Source: Bacteroidota bacterium
GTDB taxonomy: Bacteria; Bacteroidota; JABWAT01
Direction: 5' to 3'
Length of the DNA stretch: 64,000 bases
NCBI GenBank assembly: GCA_023151185.1
Contig: JAKLJL010000001.1
Coordinates: 1-64,000 of the forward strand
Shown here one piece after another: positions 2,112 through 49,058 of the stretch (its first letter is position 1; each line of letters begins with the position of its first letter). The position numbers and the translations under genes are program-made. Under the pieces are notes generated by a model. It made no database searches. It was not told the origin of the DNA and saw nothing but the letters and a program-made list of their open reading frames with translations.

Positions 2112-2192
2112 CCGCCCGGAAACCGGCTCCCGGCATCTGAACAGACTTTCAGCCAGACTCCGGCGGGTAAGTGCAGGATGACTTTGACCAAC

Positions 2193-2226
2193 AAAAAACC
2201 CGGTAGTGTTTACCGGGTTTTTTTAT
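2193..2226. terminator. Bidirectional intrinsic terminator
   Basis: A perfect stem of AAAAACCCGGTA and TACCGGGTTTTT around a four-base loop, with an A-run on the left and a T-run on the right. It lies between the convergent lipoprotein and ychF genes and can serve both strands. Confidence 0.85.
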
Positions 2227-2252
2227 CTGCCAAAACGGGGTGTACTCACCGG

Positions 2253-3347
2253 TCAGACGTTGAACCGGAAGTGCATCACATCGCCATCCTGAACCACATA
2301 CTCTTTCCCTTCCACCCGAAGGAGTCCGGCTTCTTTAACGGCACCTTCCGATTTCAGCCGGACGATGTCGTCATATTTCATTACCTCAGCCCGGATGAAG
2401 CCTTTTTCAAAATCGGTATGGATCACCCCGGCAGCCTGTGGGGCCTTATCCCCTTTATGAATTGTCCAGGCCCTGACTTCAATTTTCCCGGCGGTGAAGT
2501 AGGTCATCAGACCCAGCATATCGAATCCGATTGTGATAATCTGATCCAGGCCTGATTTTTCAAGTCCGATTCCGGCCAGAAAATCCTTTCTTTCTTCCGG
2601 GGGAAGTTCGGCAATTTCGGCTTCAATGGCAGCAGAAATAGTTACGATCCGGGCGCCTTCTGCATCAGCAACCGCCTTCACCTGGCTAACGTATGGGTTC
2701 CCCGAGAGGATGTCCTTTTCGGCCACATTGGCCACATAAAGAACCGGTTTATCCGTCAGGAAAAAGCAATCAGCAAAGACTTCCTTCTGTTCGGGTGTTG
2801 CCGGAAACGTTCTAACCGGTTTTCCCTGCCCGAAATGGTCGTTCAGGGCCATCAGCAGGTCGGTATCTTCCTTAGCCTTTTTATCACCGGATTTCAATCC
2901 TCTTGATACCCGCTGGATTTTTTTATCGAGCGTATCCAGATCCTTGAAAATCAGTTCGGTTTCAATAACCTCAATATCCCGTTTCGGATTCACCGAGCCA
3001 TCGACATGGATGACATTGTCATCATCGAAGCACCGGACCACATGCAGAATCGCATCGCATTCGCGGATGTTGGAAAGAAACTGGTTCCCGAGTCCTTCAC
3101 CCTTCGAGGCCCCTTTGACGAGTCCGGCGATATCCACAAACTCGACAGCAGCCGGGATGACTTTATCCGTCCCGACAATTTCCTTCAGAACCCACAGCCG
3201 GTCATCCGGGACGTCTACCACCCCGACGTTGGGTTCGATGGTGCAGAAGGGGAAATTGGCTGCCTGTGCGCCGGCAGCGGTAATGGCGTTGAACAAGGTT
3301 GACTTGCCGACGTTTGGAAGGCCGACAATACCGATTTTAAGACCCAT
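2253..3347 (-). CDS. ychF: YchF/OLA1-family P-loop NTPase
   Basis: A 364-residue protein, the normal length for YchF (about 363). The P-loop GLPNVGKST is at residues 9-17, followed by the typical FPFCTIEPNVG switch region. NVAEKD takes the place of the GTPase NKxD motif, as in YchF, which prefers ATP. The last 85 residues form the TGS domain with the conserved ending EYVVQDGDVMHFRFNV. YchF binds ribosomes and is linked to translation control and oxidative stress. It is the last gene of a minus-strand run behind aguA and the TPM-domain gene, 36 bases after the latter. Start ATG follows MGLKIGIVG, the family's usual N-terminus. Confidence 0.97.
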   Translation of the reverse strand: MGLKIGIVGLPNVGKSTLFNAITAAGAQAANFPFCTIEPNVGVVDVPDDRLWVLKEIVGTDKVIPAAVEFVDIAGLVKGASKGEGLGNQFLSNIRECDAILHVVRCFDDDNVIHVDGSVNPKRDIEVIETELIFKDLDTLDKKIQRVSRGLKSGDKKAKEDTDLLMALNDHFGQGKPVRTFPATPEQKEVFADCFFLTDKPVLYVANVAEKDILSGNPYVSQVKAVADAEGARIVTISAAIEAEIAELPPEERKDFLAGIGLEKSGLDQIITIGFDMLGLMTYFTAGKIEVRAWTIHKGDKAPQAAGVIHTDFEKGFIRAEVMKYDDIVRLKSEGAVKEAGLLRVEGKEYVVQDGDVMHFRFNV

Positions 3348-3383
3348 TTGATTCCTTATTGATTAAAAACTCATTCCGGCAGA

Positions 3384-4034
3384 TCAGTTGCCGATTCTCA
3401 GTTCATTTCCGATTTCATTGGTATCATCATTCTGGATTGCCACTCCGGCAGATTCCAGAATGTCGCCGCATTTTGCAATAGCCGAGATAATTCCGTCTGC
3501 TGCTTTGCCGGTCCGGATTCCAGAAACGACAAGCGCCGCCACCTCATTCCAGGTTTCCGGCTTGACCTTCCGGTTGATTCCGGCATCCCCGATCACCAGA
3601 ACCCGGTGTTCCAGGTTTGAAATAAAGATGAGGATTCCGGTCCGGCTGCGGGTGGCAAAAACCTCTTCGGAAACAAAGGCTTCGGCAGCCCGGGCGGTTA
3701 CCCGGTCATTCATCGTGGCCTTGCCGGCAGCAAACCGGAGAACGGCGGGGATCCGGATGGCGATGAGGGAAAGAATCAGGACCGTTCCGGAAACCGCCAT
3801 CAGCGTTTCGAATATACCGAACGGGAAAAACCAGCCGGAGTATTCCATGATCAGTGCTGTAATCAGATTGCAAACCACCATCAGAATCCCGCAGAATTTC
3901 CAGAACGCATCGGGGTAGCCATCACTCGATTCCACGAAATAGGGGACAATTTCACCGGAAGTTTTTTTCTCGGCGGCAGCAACTGCTTCCTCAATTTTCT
4001 TCAGTTCCTGATCAGTAAACAAGGGTTTCGACAT
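3384..4034 (-). CDS. TPM-domain membrane protein
   Basis: The start at 4034 is preferred over an upstream in-frame start inside aguA because AGGAG lies 8 bases before it and the family's N-terminus (FTDQELKKIEEAVAAAEKKT) begins right there. The 216-residue protein then has SGEIVPYFVESS, the first strand of the TPM fold, two membrane helices (about residues 42-64 and 72-96), and a second TPM half with GILIFISNLEHRVLVIGDAGI and the final helix AADGIISAIAKCGDIL. TPM domains occur in thylakoid TLP18.3 and in bacterial YgcG-like proteins; their biochemical role is uncertain, with acid phosphatase activity reported for the plant protein. It follows aguA by 14 bases. Confidence 0.85.
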   Translation of the reverse strand: MSKPLFTDQELKKIEEAVAAAEKKTSGEIVPYFVESSDGYPDAFWKFCGILMVVCNLITALIMEYSGWFFPFGIFETLMAVSGTVLILSLIAIRIPAVLRFAAGKATMNDRVTARAAEAFVSEEVFATRSRTGILIFISNLEHRVLVIGDAGINRKVKPETWNEVAALVVSGIRTGKAADGIISAIAKCGDILESAGVAIQNDDTNEIGNELRIGN

Positions 4035-4048
4035 GGGTTTTTCTCCTG

Positions 4049-5089
4049 TTATTCCGGTTCCTGCTGGCTCAGACAATGAAAACTTCCCAGTCCCCAGATA
4101 ATGTCGACGGAATCCAGTCCGACCACCGGCCGGTCGCTGAAGACGGAGGATAAAATCTGAAGGGCCCGGTCGTCCTGACGGCACCGGTAAGTCGGGACAA
4201 TGACCGCCGAATTGGCGATGTAAAAATTGGCATAGGAAGCCGGCAGTCTCTGGTCCTCAAAGATAACCGGGTCGGGCATGGGAAGTTCGACAACCGTCAT
4301 CTGTTTCCCGCTTTCGAGCCTCATGCGGTTCAGTTCTTTTAAATTATCCTGCAGAATCGGGTAGTTTTCATCCTGGCGGTTTTCTTCAACGACGGTAACT
4401 ACGGTATCGGCAGAGACAAACCGGGTCAGGTCATCAATATGTCCGTCGGTATCATCGCCCACAATGCCGTCACCCAGCCAGAGAATATGGTCAACGGCGT
4501 AAAATTCCCGGAGAAAAGTTTCAATTTCACCCTGACTGAGGTGCGGATTCCGGTTTTCATTCAGCAGGCAGGCGGTGGTGGTGAGCAGGGTCCCTTTCCC
4601 GTTAAACTCGACAGAGCCGCCTTCCATTACAATTCCGGGTTTGAACACCGGATAGCCAAATTTCCGTCCGATCAATGTCGGGATGATGTCATCCAGATCA
4701 TAGGGTGGATATTTATCCCCCCAGGCATTGTAATCCCAATCCACAATGATTTTCGGTTCAGGAGCTGTTTTGCTGGTGAGAAAGGCCGGACCGTGATCGC
4801 GGCACCAGGCATCGTTGGTCGGGAAAGGATAAAATTCCACCTGGCTGAGATCGGTTCCGTTGGCTTTCAGGTACTGCAGCGCCTGAGCTTCCATTTTTTC
4901 GCCGGAAACATTCACCCGTACTTTTTCACCCGTTGCCAGAAGTTTGATGAAATCGGCATAAACCGGATAAATTGAGTCAATTTTTCCCGGCCAGGAAGCT
5001 TCCTTGTGCGGCCAGGACAACCAGGTTGCCGAATGCCGTTCCCATTCTGCAGGGAACCGGTACCCGAGAGATTTCGGAGATGTATTCAT
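4049..5089 (-). CDS. aguA: Agmatine deiminase
   Basis: A 346-residue member of the peptidylarginine-deiminase fold. Agmatine deiminase converts agmatine to N-carbamoylputrescine and ammonia. Visible family motifs are PAEWERHSATWLSWPH at the N-terminus, NDAWCRDHGP around residue 95, EGGSVEFNGKGTLLTT, GDDTDGHIDD in the middle, and the catalytic cysteine in GSFHCLSQQ only a few residues from the end. With aguB about 600 bases upstream on the same strand it completes the agmatine to putrescine route. The two genes are separated by a broken GxxExxY gene. The start has only a weak ribosome site (GGTGG). Confidence 0.95.
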   Translation of the reverse strand: MNTSPKSLGYRFPAEWERHSATWLSWPHKEASWPGKIDSIYPVYADFIKLLATGEKVRVNVSGEKMEAQALQYLKANGTDLSQVEFYPFPTNDAWCRDHGPAFLTSKTAPEPKIIVDWDYNAWGDKYPPYDLDDIIPTLIGRKFGYPVFKPGIVMEGGSVEFNGKGTLLTTTACLLNENRNPHLSQGEIETFLREFYAVDHILWLGDGIVGDDTDGHIDDLTRFVSADTVVTVVEENRQDENYPILQDNLKELNRMRLESGKQMTVVELPMPDPVIFEDQRLPASYANFYIANSAVIVPTYRCRQDDRALQILSSVFSDRPVVGLDSVDIIWGLGSFHCLSQQEPE

Positions 5090-5653
5090 AACTGTACCAC
5101 CAGGGCGATAAATATTGGGACAATGCTGTAATTTTTAAAGAGACACCAAAGGTGCAAAGGCGCCAAAAATTAGGACAATGCCTAAAATTTGAATAATCTA
5201 AAAAAGAAATCAAGGAACAAAACTTAGTACCGGTATAACAATCCAGCCCATTTACAAACCGTTTAATTCCATTTTTAATCAAGGGAACATTGAAATTGAC
5301 CAGCAATCCCAATTTTTTGTCAGCCAGTTTCAGGTATGAAATCAGTTGTGCATCAAAAACAAGTAAAAGGGTTTCAACCGCCTTTATTTCAATTATAATT
5401 TTATCTTCGACCAGTAAATCCAAATAAACTACTTTTTCAAGATCAACCGATTTGTATTTCAGCGGAACAGGAACCTGCCGGTTAAGTTTATGTCCACGTT
5501 GGTGCAGCTCAAGTTCCAGACACCTTTCGTAAATGGATTCAAGAAGTCCGGGTCCATGTTTTTATGGACTTCAAAGCAGGAATCCACAATGATTCTCGAA
5601 AGGTAGTTTATTTCATCCCTTTCTGCATCTTTCTTTGAATAGTACATGAACAT
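4977..5653 (-). pseudogene. Frameshifted GxxExxY protein (PD-(D/E)XK-like family)
   Basis: The first frame (from 5653) reads KDAERDEINYLSRIIVD, SCFEVHKNM and then DPDFL before running into unrelated residues and a stop. Shifting by one base near 5538-5545 restores FLESIYERCLELELHQRG, VPVPLKYKSVDLEKV and then LDLLVEDKIIIEIKAVE, LISYLKLADKKLGLLVNFN and GIKRFVNGL, which is the whole GxxExxY family pattern. A single missing G in what should be TTCTTGGAATCC explains the break. The family match ends near 5245, but the frame stays open to 4977, overlapping the start of aguA by 113 bases, so the original stop also seems lost. GCAAAGGCGCC-like sequence flanks it on both sides (about 5151-5164 and 5694-5702). 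Confidence 0.85.
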
Positions 5654-5715
5654 CCGATTTATGGTTGGTAATTAACCCTAAATCCAGATTCTTTGCGCCT
5701 CTGTGATCTCCCCGG

Positions 5716-6588
5716 TCAGTCGATGAACCGTTTGGTGATGGGGTCGTAAGAGTCAATCCGGCGATCCCGTAAAAACGGCCAGTGAACCCGGTACGAGTCT
5801 GTTTTGCTCAGATTCAGGGTTTCGACATGGAGTTCTTCCCGGTCATGGCTGGCTTTGAACAGGAGCCGGCCGAACGGATTTGAAATGAAAGATCCGCCCC
5901 AGAACTGCATGGCACCTTCTCTTCCCACCCGGTTAACCGAGACGACATGAAGTCCGTTGGCGACGGCATGACCCCGCTGAATGGTTTGCCAGGCCGTGTA
6001 CTGCTCGTCATTGGTCTCCTGGTCCTGACTTAACGCCCAGCCGATAGCAGTCGGGTAAACCAGAAGTTCGGCCCCCATCAGGGCGGTAATCCGGGCTGCT
6101 TCAGGATACCACTGATCCCAGCAGATCAGGACCCCGATTCTGGCAAAGCGGGTTTCAAAAACCCGGTATCCCAGATCGCCTGGTGTGAAATAAAACTTCT
6201 CATAATAAGCCGGGTCATCCGGAATGTGCATTTTCCTGTATTTTCCCAGATAACTTCCGTCAGCATCCAGAACGGCGGTGGTGTTGTGGTACAGACCTTC
6301 TGCCCGTTTCTCGAACAGGGAAGCGACAATAACAACGCCCAGTTCACCGGCCAGCTTTCCCAAAAGATCGGTAGATGGCCCGGGAATGGCTTCCGCCAGA
6401 GAAAAATTGTCATAGTCTTCAGTATCACAGAAGTACAGAGACCTGAACAGTTCCTGAAGCACCACAATCTGGGCGCCTGCTGCTGCAGCTTCTCTGATTT
6501 TCCGGATGGTTTTTTCCATGTTTTCTTCGGGATTCCCCGAGCAGGAAACCTGAATCAGCCCGACATTGACGAGTTTTTCTTTCGCCAC
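5716..6588 (-). CDS. aguB: N-carbamoylputrescine amidase
   Basis: A 290-residue nitrilase-superfamily enzyme that hydrolyses N-carbamoylputrescine to putrescine, CO2 and ammonia. The catalytic triad is visible: Glu46 (VLQELF), Lys119 (YRKMHIPDD) and Cys156 (LICWDQWYPEAAR). The CWDQWYPEAAR context is specific for the AguB branch. The start is a GTG with GGAAGG 6 bases upstream. A promoter-like TTTG-N18-TATCTTTG lies just upstream. It heads a minus-strand run that continues through the GxxExxY remnant to aguA. Polyamine synthesis from arginine is the likely role; no arginine decarboxylase is in the window. Confidence 0.96.
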   Translation of the reverse strand: MAKEKLVNVGLIQVSCSGNPEENMEKTIRKIREAAAAGAQIVVLQELFRSLYFCDTEDYDNFSLAEAIPGPSTDLLGKLAGELGVVIVASLFEKRAEGLYHNTTAVLDADGSYLGKYRKMHIPDDPAYYEKFYFTPGDLGYRVFETRFARIGVLICWDQWYPEAARITALMGAELLVYPTAIGWALSQDQETNDEQYTAWQTIQRGHAVANGLHVVSVNRVGREGAMQFWGGSFISNPFGRLLFKASHDREELHVETLNLSKTDSYRVHWPFLRDRRIDSYDPITKRFID

Positions 6589-6623
6589 AAAACACCTTCC
6601 TGATGGATGACTGTAAAAACCTG

Positions 6624-6653
6624 CAAAGATACGGAACCAGCAGGGGATTCAAA
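6624..6653 (-). promoter_or_regulatory. Bacteroidota-type promoter of aguB
   Basis: On the minus strand TTTG (6653-6650), an 18-base spacer and TATCTTTG (6631-6624) match the -33 TTTG and -7 TAnnTTTG elements used by the primary sigma factor of Bacteroidota. It is followed by CAGG and lies 35 bases before the GTG of aguB. Confidence 0.6.
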
Positions 6654-6732
6654 AACCGGTGGCTGTTCGGGAAACCCGAAAGGATGACCGGCTTTTAACC
6701 TGGCTTTAATAGAAAGCACTTTTAATTTTTTG

Positions 6733-6740
6733 TACCTTTG
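6733..6740 (+). promoter_or_regulatory. TAnnTTTG element before the 6.7 kb operon
   Basis: TACCTTTG, followed by GGCAGG, sits 21 bases before the ATG at 6762. It matches the Bacteroidota -7 element; no clear -33 TTTG is visible at the usual distance, so the assignment rests on the -7 match and position. Confidence 0.45.
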
Positions 6741-6761
6741 GGCAGGTTTACAGGAGGTCTT

Positions 6762-7226
6762 ATGACTGACATTTTTCTCCGGATCCGGTCCTGGCTGTCG
6801 GGGCTTTCATCCCGGAACCGGGTCAATTCCTATTTTTTGTGTGCCTGGCAGCTTGAGTATGAAAACAAGGCGCTTTTGGCCCGGCTGATGCCGCTTATCC
6901 GCTATCCGTTCCTGGCCGCCGCCGTTCAGGATCTGGCTGACCTCCAGACCACCGACTGCCGGCAGGCCGATCTGGAACTGGCGAGTGCCCAGTTGAATAA
7001 GCCGCCGGTGACAGAACCGGGTGGTCCGGAATACGGCGAAACGGATTACCATCAGAGAACCTGGCTTGTCAACCGGCTGCTCGAAAACTGCAAAACCCTG
7101 TCCTCTCTGTATCTGCATCTTTCCTACTCGGATACGATTGCCCAGCCCGTTCACTTTCAGAGGCTGAAATCTTCCAAAGACCTTCAGATTGACCGGATTC
7201 AGGATCTGGTGTTACGGCTGAACTGA
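6762..7226 (+). CDS. Unknown helical protein heading a nucleotide/thioesterase operon
   Basis: The ATG at 6762 has an ideal AGGAGG seven bases upstream, so the earlier in-frame start is not used. The 154-residue protein has no signal peptide or membrane helix. It appears mostly helical, with a motif-like ENKALLARLMPLIRYP and a later NRLLENCKTLSSLYLHLSYSD. I recognise no domain. The stop is one base before the thioesterase ATG, so it is almost certainly co-translated with that gene and the sfsA-pyrE run behind it. It is cytoplasmic by prediction. Confidence 0.7.
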   Translation: MTDIFLRIRSWLSGLSSRNRVNSYFLCAWQLEYENKALLARLMPLIRYPFLAAAVQDLADLQTTDCRQADLELASAQLNKPPVTEPGGPEYGETDYHQRTWLVNRLLENCKTLSSLYLHLSYSDTIAQPVHFQRLKSSKDLQIDRIQDLVLRLN

Positions 7227-7227
7227 T

Positions 7228-7680
7228 ATGGACGGACTTTTTTTCTATAACCGGGTGGTTCTTCCCGAAGCCATTGATGCGAACGGGCATGTCAATAATC
7301 TGGTCTATCTGAAATGGATGCAGGATCTTGCAACCGGCCATTCTTCTGACCGGGGATGGACGTTTAGCCGGTATCAGGAAACCCGGTGCACCTGGGTCAT
7401 CCGGTCTCATTCAATCGAGTACATCCGACCGTCGTTTGAGGGTGAAATGCTGATCCATGCCACCTGGATTCATGATTTTGGTGTTAACCAGTCGAAAAGA
7501 AAATACCTGTTCCTGAGAGACTCTGACCGGAAGGTTATTGCCCGTGCAGAAACTCTTTGGGTTTTCATTGATCTGAAAACCGGAAAACCTGCATCGATTC
7601 CGCCTGAATTCAAATCCGGTTTTACGCTGATTCCCGCTGATCAGGACGTTTTGCATTTCTTTATTTCCGGGCAGAAATGA
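7228..7680 (+). CDS. Hotdog-fold acyl-CoA thioesterase (YbgC/4HBT type)
   Basis: A 150-residue single hotdog domain. The 4-hydroxybenzoyl-CoA thioesterase active-site block is at residues 14-31: EAIDANGHVNN followed by YLKWMQD, with Asp17 as the expected catalytic residue. Later strands fit the fold: HSIEYIRPSFEGEMLIHAT and RAETLWVFIDLKTGKP. Such enzymes hydrolyse short or medium acyl-CoAs; the substrate cannot be read from the sequence. It lies one base behind the unknown gene and eight before sfsA. Confidence 0.85.
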   Translation: MDGLFFYNRVVLPEAIDANGHVNNLVYLKWMQDLATGHSSDRGWTFSRYQETRCTWVIRSHSIEYIRPSFEGEMLIHATWIHDFGVNQSKRKYLFLRDSDRKVIARAETLWVFIDLKTGKPASIPPEFKSGFTLIPADQDVLHFFISGQK

Positions 7681-35168: not shown

Positions 35169-38100
35169 ATGAAACAGTGTGTTGGACTTTTAATTTTTCT
35201 TCTGGTTGCCGCCGGTGCATTTGCCGGAAACAATCAGAAAGCAGTAGCCAGACTGGATAAAGGGGAAACCACCGACGTGGTGTCAACCAGTATCCGGGCT
35301 AAGGTGAATGAATCCGTTCTGATCGGTAACTCAGCCAATGCGTATGCCTGGCAGGCTGCAGGAACCAACCAGATTTTCTATGATGCAGCCAGTGGCACGA
35401 TTGCGGTAATCAAACGCCGCGGAACGCTGGATACTGCAATTCCGTCCGGCTCCGGCCGTATTGTTGTCCATCTGTCGACCGACCAGGGAGCTACCTGGGG
35501 TGCCGGTTTGCAAATCAATGGTGAACTTGCCCCAGAGGTATTTGGCCGTCACCCGAACGTTGCGATCCTGCCTAGCGGTGAACTGATCAGCCAATGGGCT
35601 GAACTGTATCCAATGGGAGCTGGCTTTCAGGCGATCGGAATTGCCGCCCACAAACTGTCGGATGGCAGTGTTGTAACTGCCCCGTGGATTGATGAAGAAA
35701 TCATCGAAGAAGTTGACGATATCGCCGGAAATGATTCCATTCCTTACGGTGTACCGGATGAAATCTTTGTTGATGAGAAGAACAACACCTTCTACTTTGG
35801 CGGCGGAGCCGACAATGCCGTAACCAACTCGATCTACCTGTGGAAATCGAGCGACAAGGGTGCCACCAAGCAACTGGTGAAACTGTGGAAAGATGCCGAA
35901 TATGGCGGATTCAGCGCCGGAGTTAACCCGACTCACGGAGATTTCGTTGGTGACAACGGGAACTATATTGCATCTGTTAAACCGGATTCAGCCTGGGCTG
36001 TAAATAATGGATTTGATTACTCCATGTACTATCCGTATGTCGTCCGTTTCAAGAACGGTGCGATTGTAGAAGAAGGCTGGGTGGATGTGGATGACGTTTT
36101 TGCGTCAGCCGATATCGACAGCTGGACCTATGAGTGGGATATGGTAACCGATATCAAGGGTAACTGGCACATGTTCATTCAGGGTTACAAGGATGCCGGT
36201 ACAACTGCTGAAAACCTGGCCATCTATGAAGTGTTTTCCAACACCCCGGGCCTTTCAGACATCAGCATTAAGAAAGTTGCTGACATCAGTTTACTTTCGC
36301 TGGATTACGGTTCGGATGCCTTAACAACTCTTGCTGATATCCACGTATCCCGGGATACCGAAGGGAAGTATGTATTTGTGAAATATCTGGACTGGGATCC
36401 GCTTGATGCCCCTGAAACCTCGACCGAAGGGTTTGTAACCGGCCGTGCGATTTCCAGCGACAGCTATGCCGAACCCATTGCCATCCATGACAATGATGCT
36501 GCTGTTCAGATGTTCACCCAGGCTGCCAACCTTGCAACCGCCAAGGGAGACGGAGATGCTGCCGGAACCAAGAAATTCCAGCTTCACACCTCCTGGGTTG
36601 AGTATGGTATTGCTGGAGGCGTTCCTGCCGGAACCGCTGCTGCCAATGTCTACTATGTTGGACCAACCCTCGATGTCGCTGAATATACCGGTGGTGTAGT
36701 TCCTACTGAAGCCAAACTCGGATTTGTGATCAACACCGCTTTCGTTGGTGACACTCTTACCGCTGGTTCTTCTGTTTCCATCCGGGGTGCTGCTTTTGGC
36801 GGCGACTGGTCACTGGATAAGGGAATCAAGTTCACCAACATCGGTGGTGACTACTGGTATGCCGAGAAAACCGTTCCAACCGGAAAGTCCGGCGGTGGGT
36901 TCAAAATCGTAACTTCAACTGCCAGCGGTACCGGCTGGGACCGTCACATGGTTGGTGAATTTGATGTCACCGGCGACGATGTTTACGGCTTCTATACTAC
37001 CGGTCTGAAAGAAACCTATACCGATCCGTTTACCGGCGCAGAAATCACCCGTGGTGATGATTGGGATCCGCTTGAAATCGCAAAGAATGGCAACGCTGAT
37101 GTTTATGCAGTTCACTTCCGGGTGAATATGCAGCAAGCAGATGTCAACGGCGGATTTAATCCTGAAACCCAAAAAGTGACCGTTCGCGGTAGCTTCAATG
37201 GCTGGTCTGCTGCTGATACCCTGAAACCGGAAACCCGCCATGATGACATGTGCTGCGGTCTCGGAACCTATGAAGCAGAGAACTTCTACAGCAAAACCAT
37301 CCTGATCCCGAAAGCTTCTGCCGGCGGACAGGCTTACAAGTTCGTTTACAGTGATGCTGCTACCACAACCTGGGAAGAAAAAACCGGTGGTAACAGAACC
37401 TTCACTCTGTCTGATGACACCACCCTGTACTGGAAATGGTTTGACAATGACACATTAACCACAGGTCCGCAAGGTGCTGTTCCATTTGAAGTTTCCTTCA
37501 AGGTTAACATGGCAAAAGCCATCAATACCAACGGATTCGACAAATCAACCGATACCCTGATTGCCCGGATTGGGTTCCTGGGAACAGGCGAAAAAACAGT
37601 TGATGCAAAACTTTCTGCTCCGCTTCTGGGAACAACCTTTACCGGTAAAACTGGTGTTGACTCCTTAAAGGCAGCTAAAGGTTCAACGGTTCTGTATCAA
37701 TACTACAAGAAAAATGCAGCCGGTGAATTTGAAGAATTCTACTTTGATAACTTCAATACCCTGCCGCAATCTGCTGCTCCTAAATTCAGAAAAGTTCTTG
37801 CTCCTGAAACAGGCAGCACGATTTCTACCGAAGACTTAGTCAATGACAACGTATCCACCCACCGTCAGCCTTTCTTCAAGAACACGGCAAAAGTTGGTGT
37901 TGCGACTACTTTGACACTTGAAGTTAATCTTCTTCCTGCACACCTGGTTACAACTGCTCTGGGCGGTTCACTGAATGATATTCAGGGCGGTTCTCTGGTT
38001 GTTGATGCCAATAACATCCGGTCACTGGATCTGTATGTTAACGGTCCTGCTACCGGTAGCTGGGGTCCATGGAATGCACTCGGTCTTGGTGATACCCGCA

Positions 38101-38663
38101 AGATGACCTACAACGGCGGCGGACAGTGGTCGATCAATATTGACTATACTGCCGATGCTATCATCAGCCAGGAATTCAAACTCGGTATCGGCGGTGCTGA
38201 TAACGAAGCCGGCTTTGGTAACAACCACATGGCTAACCTGTTCCCGACTGCAACCAACAATACCAAGGTTCAGTTTGGTGATATCCAGCCTTCACGGTAC
38301 AAAGTAGATGATAACAACTACTGGAACTTTACTGAAGAACAAGGATATAAAAACGGTCAGGTTATTGATCTTACCATTGGTGTTGAAACTGAGAAAGTTG
38401 CCAAGTTTGATCTTCTCCAAAACTATCCGAACCCATTCAACCCATCTACAATGATTCCGTTCACTGTAGCTGCTGCCGGTAAAGTAGACTTCAAAGTTTA
38501 CAATATCATGGGTCAGGAAGTTTCTGCCTTCAGCTTTACTGCTACCGCAGCCGGTCGTCATGAAGTTAGTTTCAAAGCCGATAATCTGGCTTCCGGAACT
38601 TACCTCGTGAAAATGACTGCTGGTTCCAGCACGAAGACCATTAAAATGGTATTCATGAAGTAA
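35169..38663 (+). CDS. Large secreted protein: BNR-like N-terminus, CBM-like modules, T9SS sorting domain
   Basis: A 1164-residue secreted protein with signal peptide MKQCVGLLIFLLVAAGAFA. Residues 40-510 contain BNR-like repeats such as VHLSTDQGATWG and LWKSSDKGAT, which suggests a sialidase-like beta-propeller, but I do not see the catalytic set of a sialidase. Residues about 515-760 are the module shared with the upstream gene, including VTVRGSFNGWSAADTLKP. A further two domains follow, then a type A sorting domain: LLQNYPNPFNPSTMIPF, VDFKVYNIMGQEV and GTYLVKMTAG, ending IKMVFMK. Codons are less CCGG-rich than in neighbours. It lies 20 bases after its paralogue; a strong terminator follows. 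Confidence 0.85.
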   Translation: MKQCVGLLIFLLVAAGAFAGNNQKAVARLDKGETTDVVSTSIRAKVNESVLIGNSANAYAWQAAGTNQIFYDAASGTIAVIKRRGTLDTAIPSGSGRIVVHLSTDQGATWGAGLQINGELAPEVFGRHPNVAILPSGELISQWAELYPMGAGFQAIGIAAHKLSDGSVVTAPWIDEEIIEEVDDIAGNDSIPYGVPDEIFVDEKNNTFYFGGGADNAVTNSIYLWKSSDKGATKQLVKLWKDAEYGGFSAGVNPTHGDFVGDNGNYIASVKPDSAWAVNNGFDYSMYYPYVVRFKNGAIVEEGWVDVDDVFASADIDSWTYEWDMVTDIKGNWHMFIQGYKDAGTTAENLAIYEVFSNTPGLSDISIKKVADISLLSLDYGSDALTTLADIHVSRDTEGKYVFVKYLDWDPLDAPETSTEGFVTGRAISSDSYAEPIAIHDNDAAVQMFTQAANLATAKGDGDAAGTKKFQLHTSWVEYGIAGGVPAGTAAANVYYVGPTLDVAEYTGGVVPTEAKLGFVINTAFVGDTLTAGSSVSIRGAAFGGDWSLDKGIKFTNIGGDYWYAEKTVPTGKSGGGFKIVTSTASGTGWDRHMVGEFDVTGDDVYGFYTTGLKETYTDPFTGAEITRGDDWDPLEIAKNGNADVYAVHFRVNMQQADVNGGFNPETQKVTVRGSFNGWSAADTLKPETRHDDMCCGLGTYEAENFYSKTILIPKASAGGQAYKFVYSDAATTTWEEKTGGNRTFTLSDDTTLYWKWFDNDTLTTGPQGAVPFEVSFKVNMAKAINTNGFDKSTDTLIARIGFLGTGEKTVDAKLSAPLLGTTFTGKTGVDSLKAAKGSTVLYQYYKKNAAGEFEEFYFDNFNTLPQSAAPKFRKVLAPETGSTISTEDLVNDNVSTHRQPFFKNTAKVGVATTLTLEVNLLPAHLVTTALGGSLNDIQGGSLVVDANNIRSLDLYVNGPATGSWGPWNALGLGDTRKMTYNGGGQWSINIDYTADAIISQEFKLGIGGADNEAGFGNNHMANLFPTATNNTKVQFGDIQPSRYKVDDNNYWNFTEEQGYKNGQVIDLTIGVETEKVAKFDLLQNYPNPFNPSTMIPFTVAAAGKVDFKVYNIMGQEVSAFSFTATAAGRHEVSFKADNLASGTYLVKMTAGSSTKTIKMVFMK
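36713..37438 (+). repeat. Near-identical coding module, copy 2
   Basis: Second copy of the module at 33217-33940, in frame with it. It encodes the same two beta-sandwich domains in the middle of the larger protein. Confidence 0.85.
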
Positions 38664-42356: not shown

Positions 42357-43619
42357 ATGATCCGGTCCCTGATTCTGCTGCTTTCCCTGATTTTCATCAC
42401 CTCCTGTTCCTGGTTTGAACCCAAAGTCACCGTGGTTTTTACCCATAATACCAACGGATTTCTTGAAGATTGCGGTTGTTCCGGGCATAAATGGGGCGGA
42501 TTGCACCGCCGTGCTGCTGTCTTTTCGACGGTGGCAGAAAATGATCCGGAGGCTTTTTACCTTGATGCGGGGGATGTCATCTCGACCTATTACCGGTTTC
42601 CGCTGAAGGACCAGTATGTGGCCGAAATAATGAAACGGCTGAGGTACGATGCCATCGGGTTTGGAGATCAGGAACTGATCAACGGGATCCGGTTTTACGA
42701 TACCTGGATTAAAAACCTGCCAATGGTCAGCAGCAACCTAGTCGGCATGGGGGAAAGCGGCAAAGTGCTGAAAAAAAGGGGAGTTCGTGCGGCTGTCATC
42801 AGTCTCGTTAACCCAGAATTTCTCCTGAACTTACCGGATTCACTCCACCCGTTTCTGGATTTGATCCCGCCAAAAATTGTCCTCCGGCAACTGATTTCCA
42901 ATTTTCAGAAGGAGGAAATCAGGAACATCATTCTGCTTTCGCAACTGGGACTTGATAAAGACAAAGAACTGGCGGAAGAATTTCCGGAACTGAGTCTGAT
43001 TATCTCGGGTCATGATCAGGATCCCCGGGATTCCCTCTGGGTTGTGAACGGAACTCCGATTGTTCAGGCCGGTCCGGACGGGGAACGGGTCGGGTTGATG
43101 GAAGGAAAATTTCTGGAAGGGAAATTTGTCATCAGCACCTTCCGGCGCCTGCTTTTAGATTCAACTGTTCTGGCTGACTCCCTGATCTATGCCAAAATCA
43201 GGCGGTACCATGCTGAAACCGATTCCAGTTTCCGTCATGTTGAAACCAAAATTCTGCCTGACAATCCATCTAAAACTGAGTGCGCCTCCTGCCATCAGGA
43301 TATTTTTGACCGGTGGATGAAAACGCCTCATGCCCACGCCTGGGAAACTCTGGTTCAGGCCGGGGTTCAGAACGATCCGGACTGCCAGTCCTGCCATTCA
43401 ACCAATTATGGAGCACTTGAAGGCTTCAGAGCCACGAATTTTACGATGAAATGGGCCAATGTTAATTGTCAGCAATGCCATACAGCTCACGTTCCGCCGG
43501 GAGCAAAAAAATGTGCCGTAACCGGAAGTCAAAACAAGGAGGCGGATTGTGCTGTCTGCCATACCCGGCACCGAAGTCCTGAATTTGATTATTCAACCTG
43601 GTTAATGAAGGTTCACTGA
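42357..43619 (+). CDS. Lipoprotein fusing a metallophosphatase-like domain to a tetrahaem cytochrome
   Basis: A 420-residue lipoprotein; the signal ends ITSCSW with the lipobox Cys at residue 17. Residues 20-280 resemble the metallophosphoesterase/5'-nucleotidase fold: VVFTHNTNGFLEDCGC, FYLDAGDVIS, AIGFGDQELI (where GNHE is expected) and IISGHDQDP (the GHxH region). Residues 300-415 carry four CxxCH haem sites at about 308, 342, 371 and 397 in a cytochrome c-554-like arrangement with HAHAW between them. It probably faces the periplasm or surface. Electron transfer coupled to hydrolase or binding activity is inferred. Several metal ligands of the phosphatase domain look altered, so it may be a binding rather than catalytic domain. 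Confidence 0.85.
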   Translation: MIRSLILLLSLIFITSCSWFEPKVTVVFTHNTNGFLEDCGCSGHKWGGLHRRAAVFSTVAENDPEAFYLDAGDVISTYYRFPLKDQYVAEIMKRLRYDAIGFGDQELINGIRFYDTWIKNLPMVSSNLVGMGESGKVLKKRGVRAAVISLVNPEFLLNLPDSLHPFLDLIPPKIVLRQLISNFQKEEIRNIILLSQLGLDKDKELAEEFPELSLIISGHDQDPRDSLWVVNGTPIVQAGPDGERVGLMEGKFLEGKFVISTFRRLLLDSTVLADSLIYAKIRRYHAETDSSFRHVETKILPDNPSKTECASCHQDIFDRWMKTPHAHAWETLVQAGVQNDPDCQSCHSTNYGALEGFRATNFTMKWANVNCQQCHTAHVPPGAKKCAVTGSQNKEADCAVCHTRHRSPEFDYSTWLMKVH

Positions 43620-43625
43620 GGAATT

Positions 43626-44654
43626 ATGATACAAACTGCGATAAAGAAAGTCGTCGAAGGTCACCACCTGAGCCGGAATGAAGCCTACCAGGTGATGAAT
43701 GATATCATGGAAGGAAAGGCATTGCCAACCCAGATTGCAGGTTACCTGATTGCCCTGAGGATGAAAGGGGAAGTGGTTGATGAAATTGTGGGGTCTGCCG
43801 GGGCGATGCGGGATTTTGCCACAGTTGTCAAGCCAGTGACCGGCGGGTTATGTGACACCTGCGGTACAGGCGGTGATGCATCGGGAACTTTCAATATTTC
43901 GACTGCGGCGGCCTTTGCAGCAGCAGCAGCCGGGGTAAAGGTGGCCAAACACGGGAACCGGGCTGTTTCTAGTCAGTCGGGCAGTGCAGATGTCCTTCAG
44001 GCTCTTGGGGTAACTATTACTCTTTCGGCTGAGCAAATGGCCCAAAGTATTGACCAGACCGGGATCGGATTCCTGTTTGCACAAACTTTGCACCCAGCCA
44101 TGAAAAATGCCATCGGGCCCCGCCGTGAACTCGGTGTACGAACCATTTTCAATATGCTGGGACCATTGACCAACCCGGCAAGAGCCCGGCGTCAGGTGAT
44201 CGGCGTTTTCCATCCCGGATTAACCGAACTTTTTGCCGAAGTGCTCAGGGAAATGGGATCTGAGCATGTTCTGGTTGTTCATGGCCTTGGCGGATATGAT
44301 GAGTTTTCTGTTACAGGTCCAACTCAGGTTACCGAATTGAAAAACGGAGAAATCAGAACCTACCGTGTGAATCCGGTTGAATTCGGCCTCAAGGAATACA
44401 ATCACGACGATCTGCTCGGTGGAACCCCTGAGCACAATGCCAGAATTATCACGTCCGTCTTTACCGGTCAGGAGACCGGTGCTCCACTGGCCGTTATCGC
44501 CCTGAATGCCGGTGCGGCTATATATGTAAGCGGGTTGGCCGGCAGTATTTTTGAAGGTGTTGATCTGGCCCTGGCAGCCATTTCGGATGGCAGGGCTTAT
44601 AAAAAGGTTCAGGACCTTGCTGCCTTTACCAACCAGTTTGAACCCCGTGCCTGA
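43626..44654 (+). CDS. trpD: Anthranilate phosphoribosyltransferase
   Basis: A 342-residue TrpD that transfers phosphoribose to anthranilate in tryptophan synthesis. Motifs are the DTCGTGGDASGTFNISTAAAF loop that binds PRPP, VAKHGNRAVSSQSGSADVLQALGV, TIFNMLGPLTNPA and VVHGLGGYDEFS. Only six bases separate it from the cytochrome lipoprotein, yet no other tryptophan gene is near, so it is an orphan here. Assignment to trpD rather than to a thymidine-phosphorylase relative rests on the glycine-rich DTCGTGGD motif. Confidence 0.96.
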   Translation: MIQTAIKKVVEGHHLSRNEAYQVMNDIMEGKALPTQIAGYLIALRMKGEVVDEIVGSAGAMRDFATVVKPVTGGLCDTCGTGGDASGTFNISTAAAFAAAAAGVKVAKHGNRAVSSQSGSADVLQALGVTITLSAEQMAQSIDQTGIGFLFAQTLHPAMKNAIGPRRELGVRTIFNMLGPLTNPARARRQVIGVFHPGLTELFAEVLREMGSEHVLVVHGLGGYDEFSVTGPTQVTELKNGEIRTYRVNPVEFGLKEYNHDDLLGGTPEHNARIITSVFTGQETGAPLAVIALNAGAAIYVSGLAGSIFEGVDLALAAISDGRAYKKVQDLAAFTNQFEPRA

Positions 44655-44813: not shown

Positions 44814-47123
44814 GTGCTGCCTCTTTCCACCCTGATCCAAATGGCCAAATGGTTTGCTCCCGGTTTAAAACTGGATCAATCCGGCCCATTCCTTGAACTT
44901 GCAGCCAGGTACGGTCAGCCGGCAGAAAATGCGATGCCGGTAGAACTTCTCAGTTTGGGACTGAAGATGTTTTCGAGGGGATTGTATACTTCTCTGGTTA
45001 CCCAAACCCGCACCGACTGGAAATGGCCGTACTGGCATACCCGCCAATCAGACCCCGATGACCCGGCTTTTCAACCGGTTGCGCATCTGATTATCACCCA
45101 AAACCGGGTTTTCAGAAACTGGGTTCTGACCGGACTCCCCGATCATCCAAACAGGGTGGCAGTGGATCCGGCAATGATGATAACTGCCCAGAAGGACGGA
45201 TGTTCCTTCGAATTCTGGATTCAGGACAGCCAAAATCCGGATTCTCTGTTTTCAGGCAGGGAGACTGATGGCATCTCAATTCCCAACCGGTTCCCGCTTA
45301 TCCGGAAACAGAAGGAATGGAAACCCGGGATTTTCATCCGGCAAAACGTTTTCGTCAGTACGATTTCAGGAATTGATTTCGGGTTCGCCCGCCTGAAACT
45401 GAAAAATACCGGAAACCAATCTGTTCAGTTTAAAATCTGGATTTCCATCAGACCCTACAATCCGGAAGGTATTGCGCCGGTTCACCAGATCAGGTACGAT
45501 CCGGCTGTTCAGACCTGGTTTTCCGGGGAAGACCCGGTTCTGAAATCCAGACAACGTCCTGACCTTACCCTAACCGGCAACGGTGAAACGGGGGATGTCT
45601 GGAATGCAGGAAAAACCAGGAAAGTACAGACCAGTGAAACCTGCCCTGCGGGACTGGTAACGGCAGCTTCCGTTTTTTCGGTCACGCTTGCCCCGGGAAC
45701 AACCGAAAATCTGGATTTTACCTTTCCGGTCAACAGGGAAGAAGGGTTGAAGCTGATTGACTGGGCAGACCCGGATTTATTTTCCTATTCCCGGGCAAAA
45801 AACCGGTTTTATTACCGGTGGAATAAAAAGTGGGACGGGAAACTTTCCATCAGTCTTCCGGATCAGAACCTGACTCACCTGACGCAGTTCTGTATTACCG
45901 GTCAGTCTCTGTTTTGCCAGGGCACTTCCTTAACACCGGGATTCCTGATATATGATGATTTCTGGTTCCGTGATGCGGCCTTCCTTGGGCACGTCCTGCT
46001 GAAATCGGGCCAGACTGAAACAGTTAAATTAATTTTGAGGGAATTTCCGAAACGGCAGACTTCTGACGGGTATTTTAAAAGCCAGGAAGGTGAATGGGAT
46101 TCAAACGGACAGGTCCTCTGGCTGGCAGAACTCTACTGGCTTTACACCCGGGACGAGAACCTGATTCATGAGTTATTTCCGTCACTGGTTCAGGCTGGCC
46201 GGTGGATTCAGAAGAAACGGTCAGGGAATCAGAATCCGGAAGTCAAAGGACTGCTTCCGGCCGGGTTCAGTGCTGAACACTTTGGTGCCAATGACTATTA
46301 TTTCTGGGATAATTTCTGGGCACTTGCCGGCCTGGAGTCTCTCACCCGGCTTGCATCCGTTCTGAACTACCGGAATACTCAGGGCTGGGCTGAACCTGAA
46401 GCCCTTAAATACCGGCAACGGTTGGCAGAAGTTGTCTTAAAATCCGCAAAAAAACATAATGGCATTCTTCCTGCCTCACCACTGAGGGCCGTAGATGCTG
46501 GTGCGGTTGGCAACCCGGTCACTGTTTATCCGCTTCAGCTTTCAGGGTTTACCGAATCTGGATTTCAGACTGCAGATCACCTGCTTAAAACCTACTCGAC
46601 AGGTGGCTTGTTTTACCACCCGGTTGCGCATACCGGTATTAATATTTACCTGACACTGCATTTGCTGCACTGCCGGATTTACAAACGGGACCCTTCAGTT
46701 TGGCGGGATCTGAACCTTATCGCCGGAAAATCGTTTCCGCCGGGAACCTGGCCCGAAGCTTTGCACCCGGGCTTTGGTGGCGGGGTGATGGGTGAAGGGC
46801 ATCACGGTTGGGCAAATGCTGAATGGGTTTCTGCTGTGCGGGACACTCTGGTCTGCGAGTGGGAAAATGACCTGTGGCTGACTCCCTGTTTTGATCCGGA
46901 ATGGATGAAAAAACCGGGAGACCTTTCTGTCCAGCAAACCCTGACCCGGTACGGAAGCATCAGTTTTACTCTGTCATGGACAGCCTCTGACTGGATTCTG
47001 GAGTGGAAAACAGATTTCCATTCCCGTCCGGAGCATCTGATCTGGTGGATTCCGGATACCGGCGGGGAAGAACATTTAGTTCCTGCTGCCGGCAGAATCC
47101 GGCGGCCGGTTCAGACACGCTGA
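44814..47123 (+). CDS. Six-hairpin (alpha/alpha) glycosidase-like protein, cytoplasmic
   Basis: A 769-residue protein starting at a GTG, with AAGGA ten bases upstream. There is no signal peptide. The first 290 residues are a beta-rich domain resembling the N-terminal sandwich of GH15/GH63/GH78-like enzymes. From about residue 375 the (alpha/alpha)6 barrel contains IYDDFWFRDAAFLGHVLL, TSDGYFKSQEGEWDSNGQVLWLAELYWLYT, NDYYFWDNFWALAGLE and MGEGHHGWANAEWV. WFRDA and EGEWDSNGQ are the type of positions that carry acid/base residues. The substrate is not clear. Its stop directly adjoins that of the convergent transglycosylase gene. Confidence 0.7.
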   Translation: MLPLSTLIQMAKWFAPGLKLDQSGPFLELAARYGQPAENAMPVELLSLGLKMFSRGLYTSLVTQTRTDWKWPYWHTRQSDPDDPAFQPVAHLIITQNRVFRNWVLTGLPDHPNRVAVDPAMMITAQKDGCSFEFWIQDSQNPDSLFSGRETDGISIPNRFPLIRKQKEWKPGIFIRQNVFVSTISGIDFGFARLKLKNTGNQSVQFKIWISIRPYNPEGIAPVHQIRYDPAVQTWFSGEDPVLKSRQRPDLTLTGNGETGDVWNAGKTRKVQTSETCPAGLVTAASVFSVTLAPGTTENLDFTFPVNREEGLKLIDWADPDLFSYSRAKNRFYYRWNKKWDGKLSISLPDQNLTHLTQFCITGQSLFCQGTSLTPGFLIYDDFWFRDAAFLGHVLLKSGQTETVKLILREFPKRQTSDGYFKSQEGEWDSNGQVLWLAELYWLYTRDENLIHELFPSLVQAGRWIQKKRSGNQNPEVKGLLPAGFSAEHFGANDYYFWDNFWALAGLESLTRLASVLNYRNTQGWAEPEALKYRQRLAEVVLKSAKKHNGILPASPLRAVDAGAVGNPVTVYPLQLSGFTESGFQTADHLLKTYSTGGLFYHPVAHTGINIYLTLHLLHCRIYKRDPSVWRDLNLIAGKSFPPGTWPEALHPGFGGGVMGEGHHGWANAEWVSAVRDTLVCEWENDLWLTPCFDPEWMKKPGDLSVQQTLTRYGSISFTLSWTASDWILEWKTDFHSRPEHLIWWIPDTGGEEHLVPAAGRIRRPVQTR

Positions 47124-49058
47124 TCAGTCATTTTCCTCTTCCTCTGCAGACGGGTTCTGAAGAGTGGAATCCTGAACCTGTGGCGTCAGATATGATTTGG
47201 CGGCACCGGTCATTTTTAGCAGGTTCCAGGTCAGCCCGGCAGCAGTTCCATCGGGGATGTGCTGATAAGCCTCCATCTTTTTTGCCACGAAGGTCATGGT
47301 TTCTATGAGGGAAGGTTTTAAGCTTTCTCCGTCGAACCGGCGGTAGAACCGTTTTGGGGATGGAATCAGGGCAGCCAGAAACAGGCTTTCTTCCAAAGTG
47401 AGTTGTGACGGTTTCTTTTTAAAATAAAACCCTGCAGCCTCGCCGATACCGTAAACATTGGGTCCCCACTCAATCATATTAAAATAAATTTCAAGCATCC
47501 GTTCTTTGGAAACCGGACGGTTGTTTTCGAGAAGCCAGGTAATCATCAGTTCCTGAAACTTCCTTGCAAGGGTTTTTTTCCGGTTCAGGTAGACGTTTTT
47601 TACGAATTGCATGGAAATGGTGGAGGCTCCCCGGCGAAATTTCCGGGTTTTGATATTTTCGATAAGTGCTCCCTGCATGGCCTCTTCATTAAACCCGCGG
47701 TGAAACAGAAATGAACCGTCTTCGCTGGTCAGGACCGCCCGAACGAGAAAATTGGGTATTACCTCAAACCGGGTAAACTCCGGATTTGCCGGTCCGATCA
47801 GGACTTCCCGTTTGATTTCGAGCCCATCGTAGACAGGCTGGTAGAAAACAGAATCCAGTTTTCCGAATGAAACGCCGGGTGATACCAGTGAAAATTTATC
47901 TTTCACCACTTCGCCTGACAGTTTAAGGCTGTCAATCCGGTTAAAATCACAGGAGAACGTCAGTTTATATCCCAAACGTCCTTTCCAGGACATTCCGTTC
48001 AGCGGACCCAGAAAAGTGGCAGGCAATGACCGGGTTACAACTCCGGATTCAACCGGCGGAACCGATACTTGTGTTGTTACTTCCGGGAAGGCATCGGTTT
48101 CGAGATAAGTCAGGGAATCTTCAATTGAAAACTGATTGAGTTTCAACCGGGTAAAAACCGTCACCCGTGGATCCGGCTCTGAGAAAACCAACGAGGAGTT
48201 ACCGGCAAGCGAATCGAATAAAACAGGTCCGTCTGCAAGACCGCTGGTCTGAATTTCGAACTTTTTGTAACGGCCTTTCAGTAAAAAGTGCCGGTCATCC
48301 GACTTTGAAACAGTAAAGGAGCCTGTATCTGAAGCCAGGGAAAGCGGGCTTTGGGGGGAAACCGGGAAGGTTAGCCTGAACGGGCGGGGATACCAGAATA
48401 ACAGGGAGTCAGAAGACAGCCGGCCGGCGAGAGTCAGGGACCCAACCGGGCCGCTGAGATGGAAGTCTAATTTTTCTGAGCCGGAAGTCAGGTTCAATGA
48501 GTCGATCACCAGGGAGTCTGCTCCCAGCTTCACTGAAAGAGACAGCCGTGAAACGGAGACGTCCGGCAGGTTCCCGTTCAGCATCCGGTTCAGAGTCCAC
48601 TCCAGTTGCCGGACTCCTTTCGGGAAACTGACCACGGTTGTATCGGGATTTTCTTCGGCAATTTTGGCGGCCTTCCGGCTGAAGTTCCAGAATCCGTTTT
48701 CGTTCTGGTAAAGATGAACCTGGGCTGAATCCAGAACCAGGACTGACGGAATCCGGCTTCCGGAAAAAATCTGCCACGGACTCACTGCTACTTCGAGATG
48801 CCGGGCCGTAAATAACGGCTGATGCAGGGTATCATTGCCGGACAGGAACAGATTGTCCATCCGGATGGTCAGCCAGGAAACCTCGAGATTGTCCACCCGG
48901 ATTTTCCCGTTCCATTTGCCTTCGAGCCGGGTCAATTCTTTTTTAATGAGATATTCGGCTGCCGGATTCCAGGAAATCAACAAAATTATCAGTCCGGCCC
49001 CAAGGACAAATCCGGTTATAACGAGTATTTTTTTAAATCCGGGCATGGTTTTCCTCAT
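47124..49058 (-). CDS. AsmA-like/GT51 peptidoglycan transglycosylase fusion
   Basis: A 644-residue protein with one N-terminal membrane helix. Residues 40-400 are strand-rich and begin RLEGKWNGKIRVDNLEVSWLTIRMDNLFLSG, the pattern of AsmA/DUF748-like envelope proteins. Residues 440-600 form a GT51 glycosyltransferase domain: EDGSFLFHRGF with the catalytic Glu, RRGASTISMQFVKNVYLNRKKTLARKFQE, and EIYFNMIEWGPNVYGIGEAA. GT51 polymerises lipid II into glycan strands. There is no transpeptidase domain, so it resembles MtgA joined to a large periplasmic partner. Two in-frame starts (49058 and 49046) are both plausible. Confidence 0.88.
   Translation of the reverse strand: MRKTMPGFKKILVITGFVLGAGLIILLISWNPAAEYLIKKELTRLEGKWNGKIRVDNLEVSWLTIRMDNLFLSGNDTLHQPLFTARHLEVAVSPWQIFSGSRIPSVLVLDSAQVHLYQNENGFWNFSRKAAKIAEENPDTTVVSFPKGVRQLEWTLNRMLNGNLPDVSVSRLSLSVKLGADSLVIDSLNLTSGSEKLDFHLSGPVGSLTLAGRLSSDSLLFWYPRPFRLTFPVSPQSPLSLASDTGSFTVSKSDDRHFLLKGRYKKFEIQTSGLADGPVLFDSLAGNSSLVFSEPDPRVTVFTRLKLNQFSIEDSLTYLETDAFPEVTTQVSVPPVESGVVTRSLPATFLGPLNGMSWKGRLGYKLTFSCDFNRIDSLKLSGEVVKDKFSLVSPGVSFGKLDSVFYQPVYDGLEIKREVLIGPANPEFTRFEVIPNFLVRAVLTSEDGSFLFHRGFNEEAMQGALIENIKTRKFRRGASTISMQFVKNVYLNRKKTLARKFQELMITWLLENNRPVSKERMLEIYFNMIEWGPNVYGIGEAAGFYFKKKPSQLTLEESLFLAALIPSPKRFYRRFDGESLKPSLIETMTFVAKKMEAYQHIPDGTAAGLTWNLLKMTGAAKSYLTPQVQDSTLQNPSAEEEEND

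Follow-up and report, generated by a model that had tools for sequence, protein, structure and literature searches.

The stretch of DNA analysed here, referred to as the window, comprises the first 64,000 nucleotides of contig JAKLJL010000001.1 from a Bacteroidota bacterium (assembly GCA_023151185.1). It carries a gene which codes for a metallophosphatase-like domain and a tetrahaem cytochrome in one chain, closely followed by trpD. This raises the question of what such a domain does beside four haems, and whether the neighbouring gene has any part in it.

A predicted lipoprotein of two domains

The gene runs from an ATG start to a TGA stop codon (Table 1). Its product begins with a signal peptide and a lipobox, followed by a domain of about 270 residues and a 120-residue stretch with four CxxCH motifs. 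Two genomes of the same genus carry orthologues (76% and 74% identity), as does one genome of the same family (57%), and the putative lipid-anchor residue C17 is invariant across the four proteins. Since orthologues are present in three further genomes and other phyla show the same layout, a one-off fusion caused by an assembly error is ruled out. Comparison of two genus relatives indicates strong purifying selection (dN 0.021, dS 0.52). Haem-attachment genes of the CcmF/CcsA type (PF01578) were found in the genome itself.

Table 1. Features of the fusion gene and of the adjacent trpD gene (positions in the window)
Feature	Position	Strand	Basis or remark
Whole gene: UshA-like CxC domain plus tetrahaem cytochrome, predicted lipoprotein	42357..43619	+	420 aa
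Signal peptide and lipobox FITS-C17; lipid-anchor Cys17 at 42405-42407	42357..42407	+	Sequence I-T-S-C
5'-nucleotidase/SoxB-fold domain, residues 20-292	42414..43232	+	AlphaFold and VIA-align
Signature VFTHNTNGFLEDCGCSGHKWGGLHRR, residues 27-52; loop holding NDxH and metal site in true nucleotidases	42435..42512	+	24/26 identical to 57% relative
C39-G-C41, proposed redox centre	42471..42479	+	TGA/selenocysteine at 41 in 61/119 relatives
D70 in LDAGD, a retained ligand that formerly bridged the metals	42564..42566	+	D in 56/58 CxC and 59/61 CxU relatives
GDQE (103-106) replacing GNHE, catalytic His lost	42663..42674	+	Alignment of relatives
Q196 replacing SHLG His; His in 57% relative	42942..42944	+	Orthologue alignment
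H219-D-Q221, counterpart of GHxH	43011..43019	+	Alignment
c554-type tetrahaem domain, residues 305-420	43269..43616	+	PF13435, 43.5 bits; profile match to 1bvb
Haem motif 1, CASCH	43281..43295	+	48/48 aligned relatives
Haem motif 2, CQSCH	43383..43397	+	48/48 aligned relatives
Haem motif 3, CQQCH	43467..43481	+	48/48 aligned relatives
Haem motif 4, CAVCH	43548..43562	+	48/48 aligned relatives
trpD, anthranilate phosphoribosyltransferase	43626..44654	+	TIGR01245, 420.8 bits (cut-off 199)

An AlphaFold model built from 27 sequences has pLDDT values mostly above 90 for residues 20-290. When compared by VIA-align, model residues 22-290 superpose on the 5'-nucleotidase of T. thermophilus (2z1a) with Z 31.9 and rmsd 2.2 over 267 residues, and the domain fits SoxB (2wdc) with Z 30.5 and rmsd 2.2 over 263 residues. 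These model-based fits do not discriminate a nucleotidase from a SoxB origin. The relationship is also detected by phmmer, which matches the N-terminal half to solved 5'-nucleotidases (E 6e-10). A Pfam search of the fusion protein matched the cytochrome half alone; it found no match to the C-terminal substrate-binding domain of nucleotidases, the place of which is occupied by the tetrahaem domain.

The C-terminal half matches Pfam family Cytochrome_C554 well above its cut-off of 20.8 bits, with all four CxxCH motifs present, and a 13-sequence profile of this half finds the solved cytochrome c554 1bvb (E 1.4e-17). H325, a likely distal haem ligand, is kept in all 48 aligned relatives. Modelled alone, the haem half gave an AlphaFold structure whose confidence (pLDDT 59) was too low for placing the haems and for which the top Foldseek row was again a cytochrome c554 (1ft6), at a non-significant E of 1.7. 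Similarity to the solved structures that bear the name multiheme cytochrome c selenoprotein (MccSep, 9wt8) is confined to a short haem stretch (E 7e-4); our literature search found no paper on MccSep 9wt8. The window domain differs from cytochrome c554 in that it spans only about 120 residues and is fused to another domain, and no ammonia-oxidation context was seen. The genome contains no second match to PF13435. A role in respiration on extracellular acceptors or in nitrogen chemistry had been suggested for the protein; nothing was found for either, with PF13435 being searched among the cytochrome families.

A sequence-only reading of the locus had described a lipid-anchored chain which combines a phosphoesterase-fold domain with a four-CxxCH cytochrome c-554-like domain. 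The invariant lipobox cysteine, the structural fit together with the phmmer matches, and the Pfam and 1bvb matches bear this out part by part, and the presence of a metallophosphatase-like domain and a tetrahaem cytochrome in one chain is confirmed.

Metal ligands are replaced and a cysteine pair is conserved

All homologous domains of the fetched loci were aligned in window numbering, which resulted in 226 distinct rows, identical rows being counted once. The loci are the best-scoring ones of each search and are not a random sample. The rows were classified as canonical (GNHE, 74 rows), CxC (58 rows, including two Desantisbacteria loci, L083 and L092, whose motif is really CxxC) or CxU (61 rows, with TGA at position 41); 33 unclassified rows were counted apart.

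In the canonical rows which reach the NDxH motif, the metal-1 ligands are nearly invariant, with D at position 31 in 30/30 and H at position 33 in 29/30. The window protein has N31 and N33 instead, and its catalytic His is replaced by Q105. Such replacements prevail among the 58 CxC rows: at position 31, 27 rows have N, 16 have S and 8 have D; at position 33, 43 rows have N and one has H; and 43 rows have Q at position 105. The CxU rows have D at 31 in 24/61 and H at 33 in 7/61. The altered GDQE motif, noticed at the outset as a deviation from GNHE, is thus present and typical of the whole class.

The most conserved feature of the domain, the CxC motif at residues 39-41, was absent from the initial description. 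C39 and C41 stand six and eight residues past position 33. In an alignment of 27 diverse relatives, only four columns are invariant: C39, C41, G72 and Y97. CGCSGH was considered as a fifth haem motif and rejected; it is not CxxCH, and its His is missing in most relatives.

Codon 41 is TGT, and thus codes for cysteine, in the window, while an in-frame TGA is found at this position in about half of the distinct CxC/CxU domains (see Table 1). We accept selenocysteine as the reading of this codon since published surveys list, among their selenoprotein families, a UshA-like CxU family (PMC2398784, PMC9312934, PMC13188914); TGA at position 41 thus probably encodes selenocysteine in these relatives. 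Where it deals with this family, the 2008 ocean survey presents UshA-like as an exception among families with cysteine redox motifs (PMC2398784). Cys and Sec have replaced each other at least 10 times on a quick tree of 122 rows, which comprises 110 CxC/CxU rows and 12 of 55 canonical rows after dereplication at 85% and coverage filtering.

Several variants were encountered. Stand-alone, haem-less CGU forms of about 385 residues are frequent among the loci of the Marinimicrobia search (L133-L162), where 29 of the 30 fetched loci have TGA at 41; the neighbours of these forms are varied. The two Desantisbacteria loci have CPTC in place of CxC, which is closer to the CxxU of family NF049981. A TlpA-fused UshA-like protein (L091, 5518-6900) has lost the Cys pair (EPSYSH), its TlpA domain retaining CDSC. 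In an Eisenbacteria genome (L082 of G303, 1764-7344), three or more UshA-like genes with tetrahaem domains lie in tandem, two with CGC and one with CGU.

A divergent member of a catalogued family

The NCBIfam profile NF041198 (UshA-like (seleno)protein, UshA_like_PCGU) describes proteins with the same domain order and CxC/CxU motif. It matches the window gene twice, with profile positions 6-269 on the first half and 402-519 on the cytochrome half; the latter, tetrahaem part matches at G000:C11:43254-43595 with E 6.8e-21. The two-domain layout has therefore already been catalogued, as the profile covers both halves. Because the window protein scores 195 bits (E 2e-57) and does not reach the cut-off of 275, we consider it a divergent relative. 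L115, found when the phylum of a Latescibacterota genome was searched, combines CxU with four haems and passes the cut-off with 289 bits. Of 39 genomes searched in the phylum to which an Eisenbacteria genome belongs, 13 have matches above the cut-off. What is already known, then, is the two-domain family NF041198 and its Sec form; the window copy is a divergent, all-Cys relative with a linkage to trpD. The sequence-only reading was to be refuted if homologues showed both parts to be one known cytochrome family without a phosphatase fold. This applies by half: a catalogued family does lie close to the protein, yet its N-terminal domain truly has the phosphatase fold.

Two other UshA-like entries, neither of which is assigned a function in its description, share the fold name and the Cys/Sec pair. 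One is the selenoprotein listed in the ocean survey (COG0737, CxU; PMC2398784), from which the window protein differs, as far as that entry describes it, in being all-Cys and haem-fused. The other is UshA-like family 2, as listed with its CxxU motif (NF049981; PMC13188914), whose cut-off of 140 bits the window protein, with 31 bits, does not reach. In our literature search, no paper was recognised as dealing with the fusion to haems, with a link to TlpA or with how the UshA-like family works.

Thioredoxin-like neighbours in relatives

Genes or domains of the TlpA type occur within 1500 bases on the same strand for 15 of the 58 CxC rows (two haem-bearing L082 rows share a single TlpA match), for 2/74 canonical rows and for 1/33 unclassified rows. 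They are nearly absent beside the Sec forms (2/61). The difference between CxC and canonical rows has a Fisher p of 1e-4 in a test which ignores the kinship of the rows. Since the TlpA-linked rows share ancestry, plain counts make the association look stronger than it is; on the tree, the TlpA label changes 8 times. Nine of the 15 TlpA-linked CxC rows were flagged as being in the same reading frame. According to NCBIfam and Pfam, a ResA-like/AhpC-TSA domain is fused ahead of the CxC domain in L223, and NCBIfam classifies the adjoining TlpA-like gene of L074 as ResA-like. CxxC is kept in all 16 TlpA stretches inspected.

Rhodanese and MauE/DoxX genes adjoin 7 of the 119 CxC/CxU relatives and none of the 74 canonical controls. 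In L164 and L166, from the Calditrichota search, genes for rhodanese, MauE, a CxC domain with tetrahaem cytochrome, and TlpA lie side by side, in that order in L164. DUF1573 adjoins nine CxC rows. None of these genes, whether for TlpA, MauE, rhodanese or DUF1573, adjoins the window copy or the copies of the three close relatives, which have trpD as their neighbour.

The pairing with trpD

The trpD gene starts only 6 bases past the stop codon of the fusion gene. Its product is regarded as an ordinary TrpD since it is the only match in the genome above the TIGR01245 cut-off. The gene order is kept in the two genus relatives. In the family relative, a small gene is inserted between the CxC gene and trpD (L062, 8650-9051), which presumably codes for a PIN/VapC-like toxin.

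The pairing is real and its conservation extends beyond this lineage. In seven Calditrichota loci (L086, L087, L088, L089, L168, L171, L172), a haem-less CxC gene directly precedes trpD, and in L086 the gene after trpD is IGPS-like (trpC). In nine Chlorobi-type loci (L006, L030, L031, L033-L036, L039, L047), the CxC gene directly precedes hisI, which in several of them is followed by a UbiE-like methyltransferase gene. In the quick tree, the window row groups with the Chlorobi and Calditrichota rows in a single clade (SH-aLRT 97). Script-flagged gene fusions to trpD (L050, L087) proved to be artefacts of TGA read-through. The trpD pairing, left unexplained in the sequence-only reading, would most simply stem from an old co-transcription of functionally unconnected genes.

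Three other genes in the window were noted as well. The gene at 44814-47123, downstream of trpD and conserved in three relatives, codes for a 769-residue protein with no Pfam match at E 1. It is followed by a gene (47124-49058) which codes for a transglycosylase domain at the chain end and a first half with weak resemblance to DUF748/AsmA. A 1164-residue secreted protein is encoded at 35169-38663; its tail has what we take to be a sorting pattern like that of type IX secretion.

Proposed function and competing explanations

The loss of hydrolytic residues argues for a role away from phosphate chemistry. Redox chemistry is indicated because Cys and Sec replace each other at one position, the pair is invariant, thioredoxin fusions occur in relatives and haems are present. 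The redox role foreseen in the sequence-only reading thereby gains support. We thus consider it more likely that the fusion protein is an electron-handling device than that it is a phosphatase. Our preferred reading, to which we assign a probability of roughly 60%, is a hydrolase scaffold with a CxC redox centre wired to the haems, which couples two-electron thiol transfer to one-electron haem transfer. It counts against this reading that the window copy has no TlpA, MauE or rhodanese neighbour, that TlpA hardly occurs beside the Sec forms, that many CxC relatives still keep part of one metal site, and that the ocean survey treats UshA-like as an exception.

In the proposed mechanism, a periplasmic or surface lipoprotein would employ a scaffold of the 5'-nucleotidase/SoxB type in which metal chemistry has largely been given up. 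The two-cysteine centre C39-x-C41 would sit just past the former metal ligands, and the c554-type tetrahaem domain would have taken the chain position of the nucleotidase substrate-binding domain. A thiol or disulfide partner would exchange two electrons with the CxC pair; among the relatives, this partner is most likely a thioredoxin of the TlpA/ResA type, and perhaps also sulfane sulfur delivered by rhodanese. The haems would take up or supply the electrons of the CxC pair singly. Electrons could flow either way, from thiol oxidation into the haem chain or from the haem chain to disulfide reduction. That the pair is redox-active is suggested by the Sec/Cys exchange and the TlpA association; that it would face a haem, and which partner it would have, are further parts of the proposal. 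A known enzyme that works in a comparable way is ferredoxin-thioredoxin reductase, an iron-sulfur enzyme of unrelated fold which couples a one-electron centre to two-electron thiol/disulfide chemistry. A CxU form of that enzyme is included among the listed selenoprotein families (PMC13188914).

Two rivals carry most weight, a rebuilt site for a single metal and an enzyme for sulfur compounds. According to the former, C39 and/or C41 (or Sec) would bind one metal ion together with D70, D104 and H219, and this metal, instead of a disulfide, would exchange electrons with the haems or handle a small molecule. The window protein retains D70, D104, H219 and Q221. D70 is kept in 115/119 CxC and CxU relatives. 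Of the 58 CxC rows, 53 have D or E at position 104, 36 have H at 196 and 39 have H at 219. Q221 was dropped as a sign of metal loss because UshA itself has GHxQ at this position. Because one metal site is thus only partly lost in many CxC relatives, and Sec is a metal ligand in some enzymes, this explanation has to be taken seriously. However, position 196 is Q in three of the four orthologues, including the window copy. Chlorobi CxC forms (LLRALD, without GHxQ) and stand-alone Sec forms lack most of the metal ligands and yet keep CxC/U; in haem-less Sec forms, H is found at 196 in 4/32 and at 219 in 5/32. Moreover, thioredoxin partners suit a dithiol better. We therefore regard a rebuilt metal site as unlikely, though it is the strongest competitor.

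Slightly less probable still is an enzyme for sulfur compounds, in which the CxC pair would bear a persulfide or thiosulfonate in a SoxB-like manner, and oxidation or reduction of the sulfur held there (thiosulfate, sulfite or polysulfide) would fall to the haems. In SoxB, the substrate hangs on a protein cysteine. Both the window protein (E 1.5e-11) and its relative L074 (E 1.5e-28) are similar to the SoxB profile, the model fits SoxB nearly as closely as the nucleotidases, and the rhodanese and MauE/DoxX neighbours are found among relatives and not among the controls. Nevertheless, the window protein reaches just 43.3 bits with TIGR04486, far below the SoxB cut-off of 550, its own gene has no adjoining rhodanese or MauE gene, and TlpA is found as a partner more often.

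The original proposal for this locus placed a redox wire next to a phosphate- or nucleotide-binding site. Taken further, the protein would be a phosphatase or nucleotidase whose metals are altered and whose activity the haems sense or drive. Its catalytic-domain fold is indeed shared with UshA and CD73 (Z about 30 to 32), and the four metal-site residues named above remain. However, neither metal-1 ligand is retained, the catalytic His has given way to Q, Pfam does not detect the C-terminal nucleotidase domain, and related groups have shed further metal ligands while retaining C-x-C/U. Judged by these residues, phosphatase or nucleotide action by the fusion protein is unlikely, and we give this proposal very little credence. 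Least credible is an inert spacer or docking module beside haems which alone matter: catalytic residues are indeed lost, but residues 27-52 are far better conserved than the domain as a whole (167/269 identical to the 57% relative over residues 22-290), C39 and C41 are invariant, and the domain occurs without haems in 69/119 relatives (37 CxC, 32 CxU).

Implications for the family

The thiol-haem coupling proposed for the window protein may extend further. A UshA/SoxB fold would then have been turned into a thiol(selenol)-haem transducer in several phyla, in Cys and Sec versions, working with TlpA-type thioredoxins and, in some lineages, with MauE and rhodanese. This generalisation is tentative, and we consider it possible rather than probable. 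Anchored by lipid in the envelope, such a transducer would turn two-electron dithiol/disulfide exchange into a one-electron current through its tetrahaem wire. It would resemble the Dsb electron relays, with haems as the carriers.

A catalogued (seleno)protein family without functional assignment thereby gains a concrete, testable role. The window form is all-Cys, can therefore be made without selenocysteine machinery, and is thus a convenient member for testing. If the proposal is true, an annotation as UshA or 5'-nucleotidase is misleading for many genomes, and bacteria would wire extracytoplasmic thiol chemistry straight to multihaem cytochromes via a repurposed phosphatase fold.
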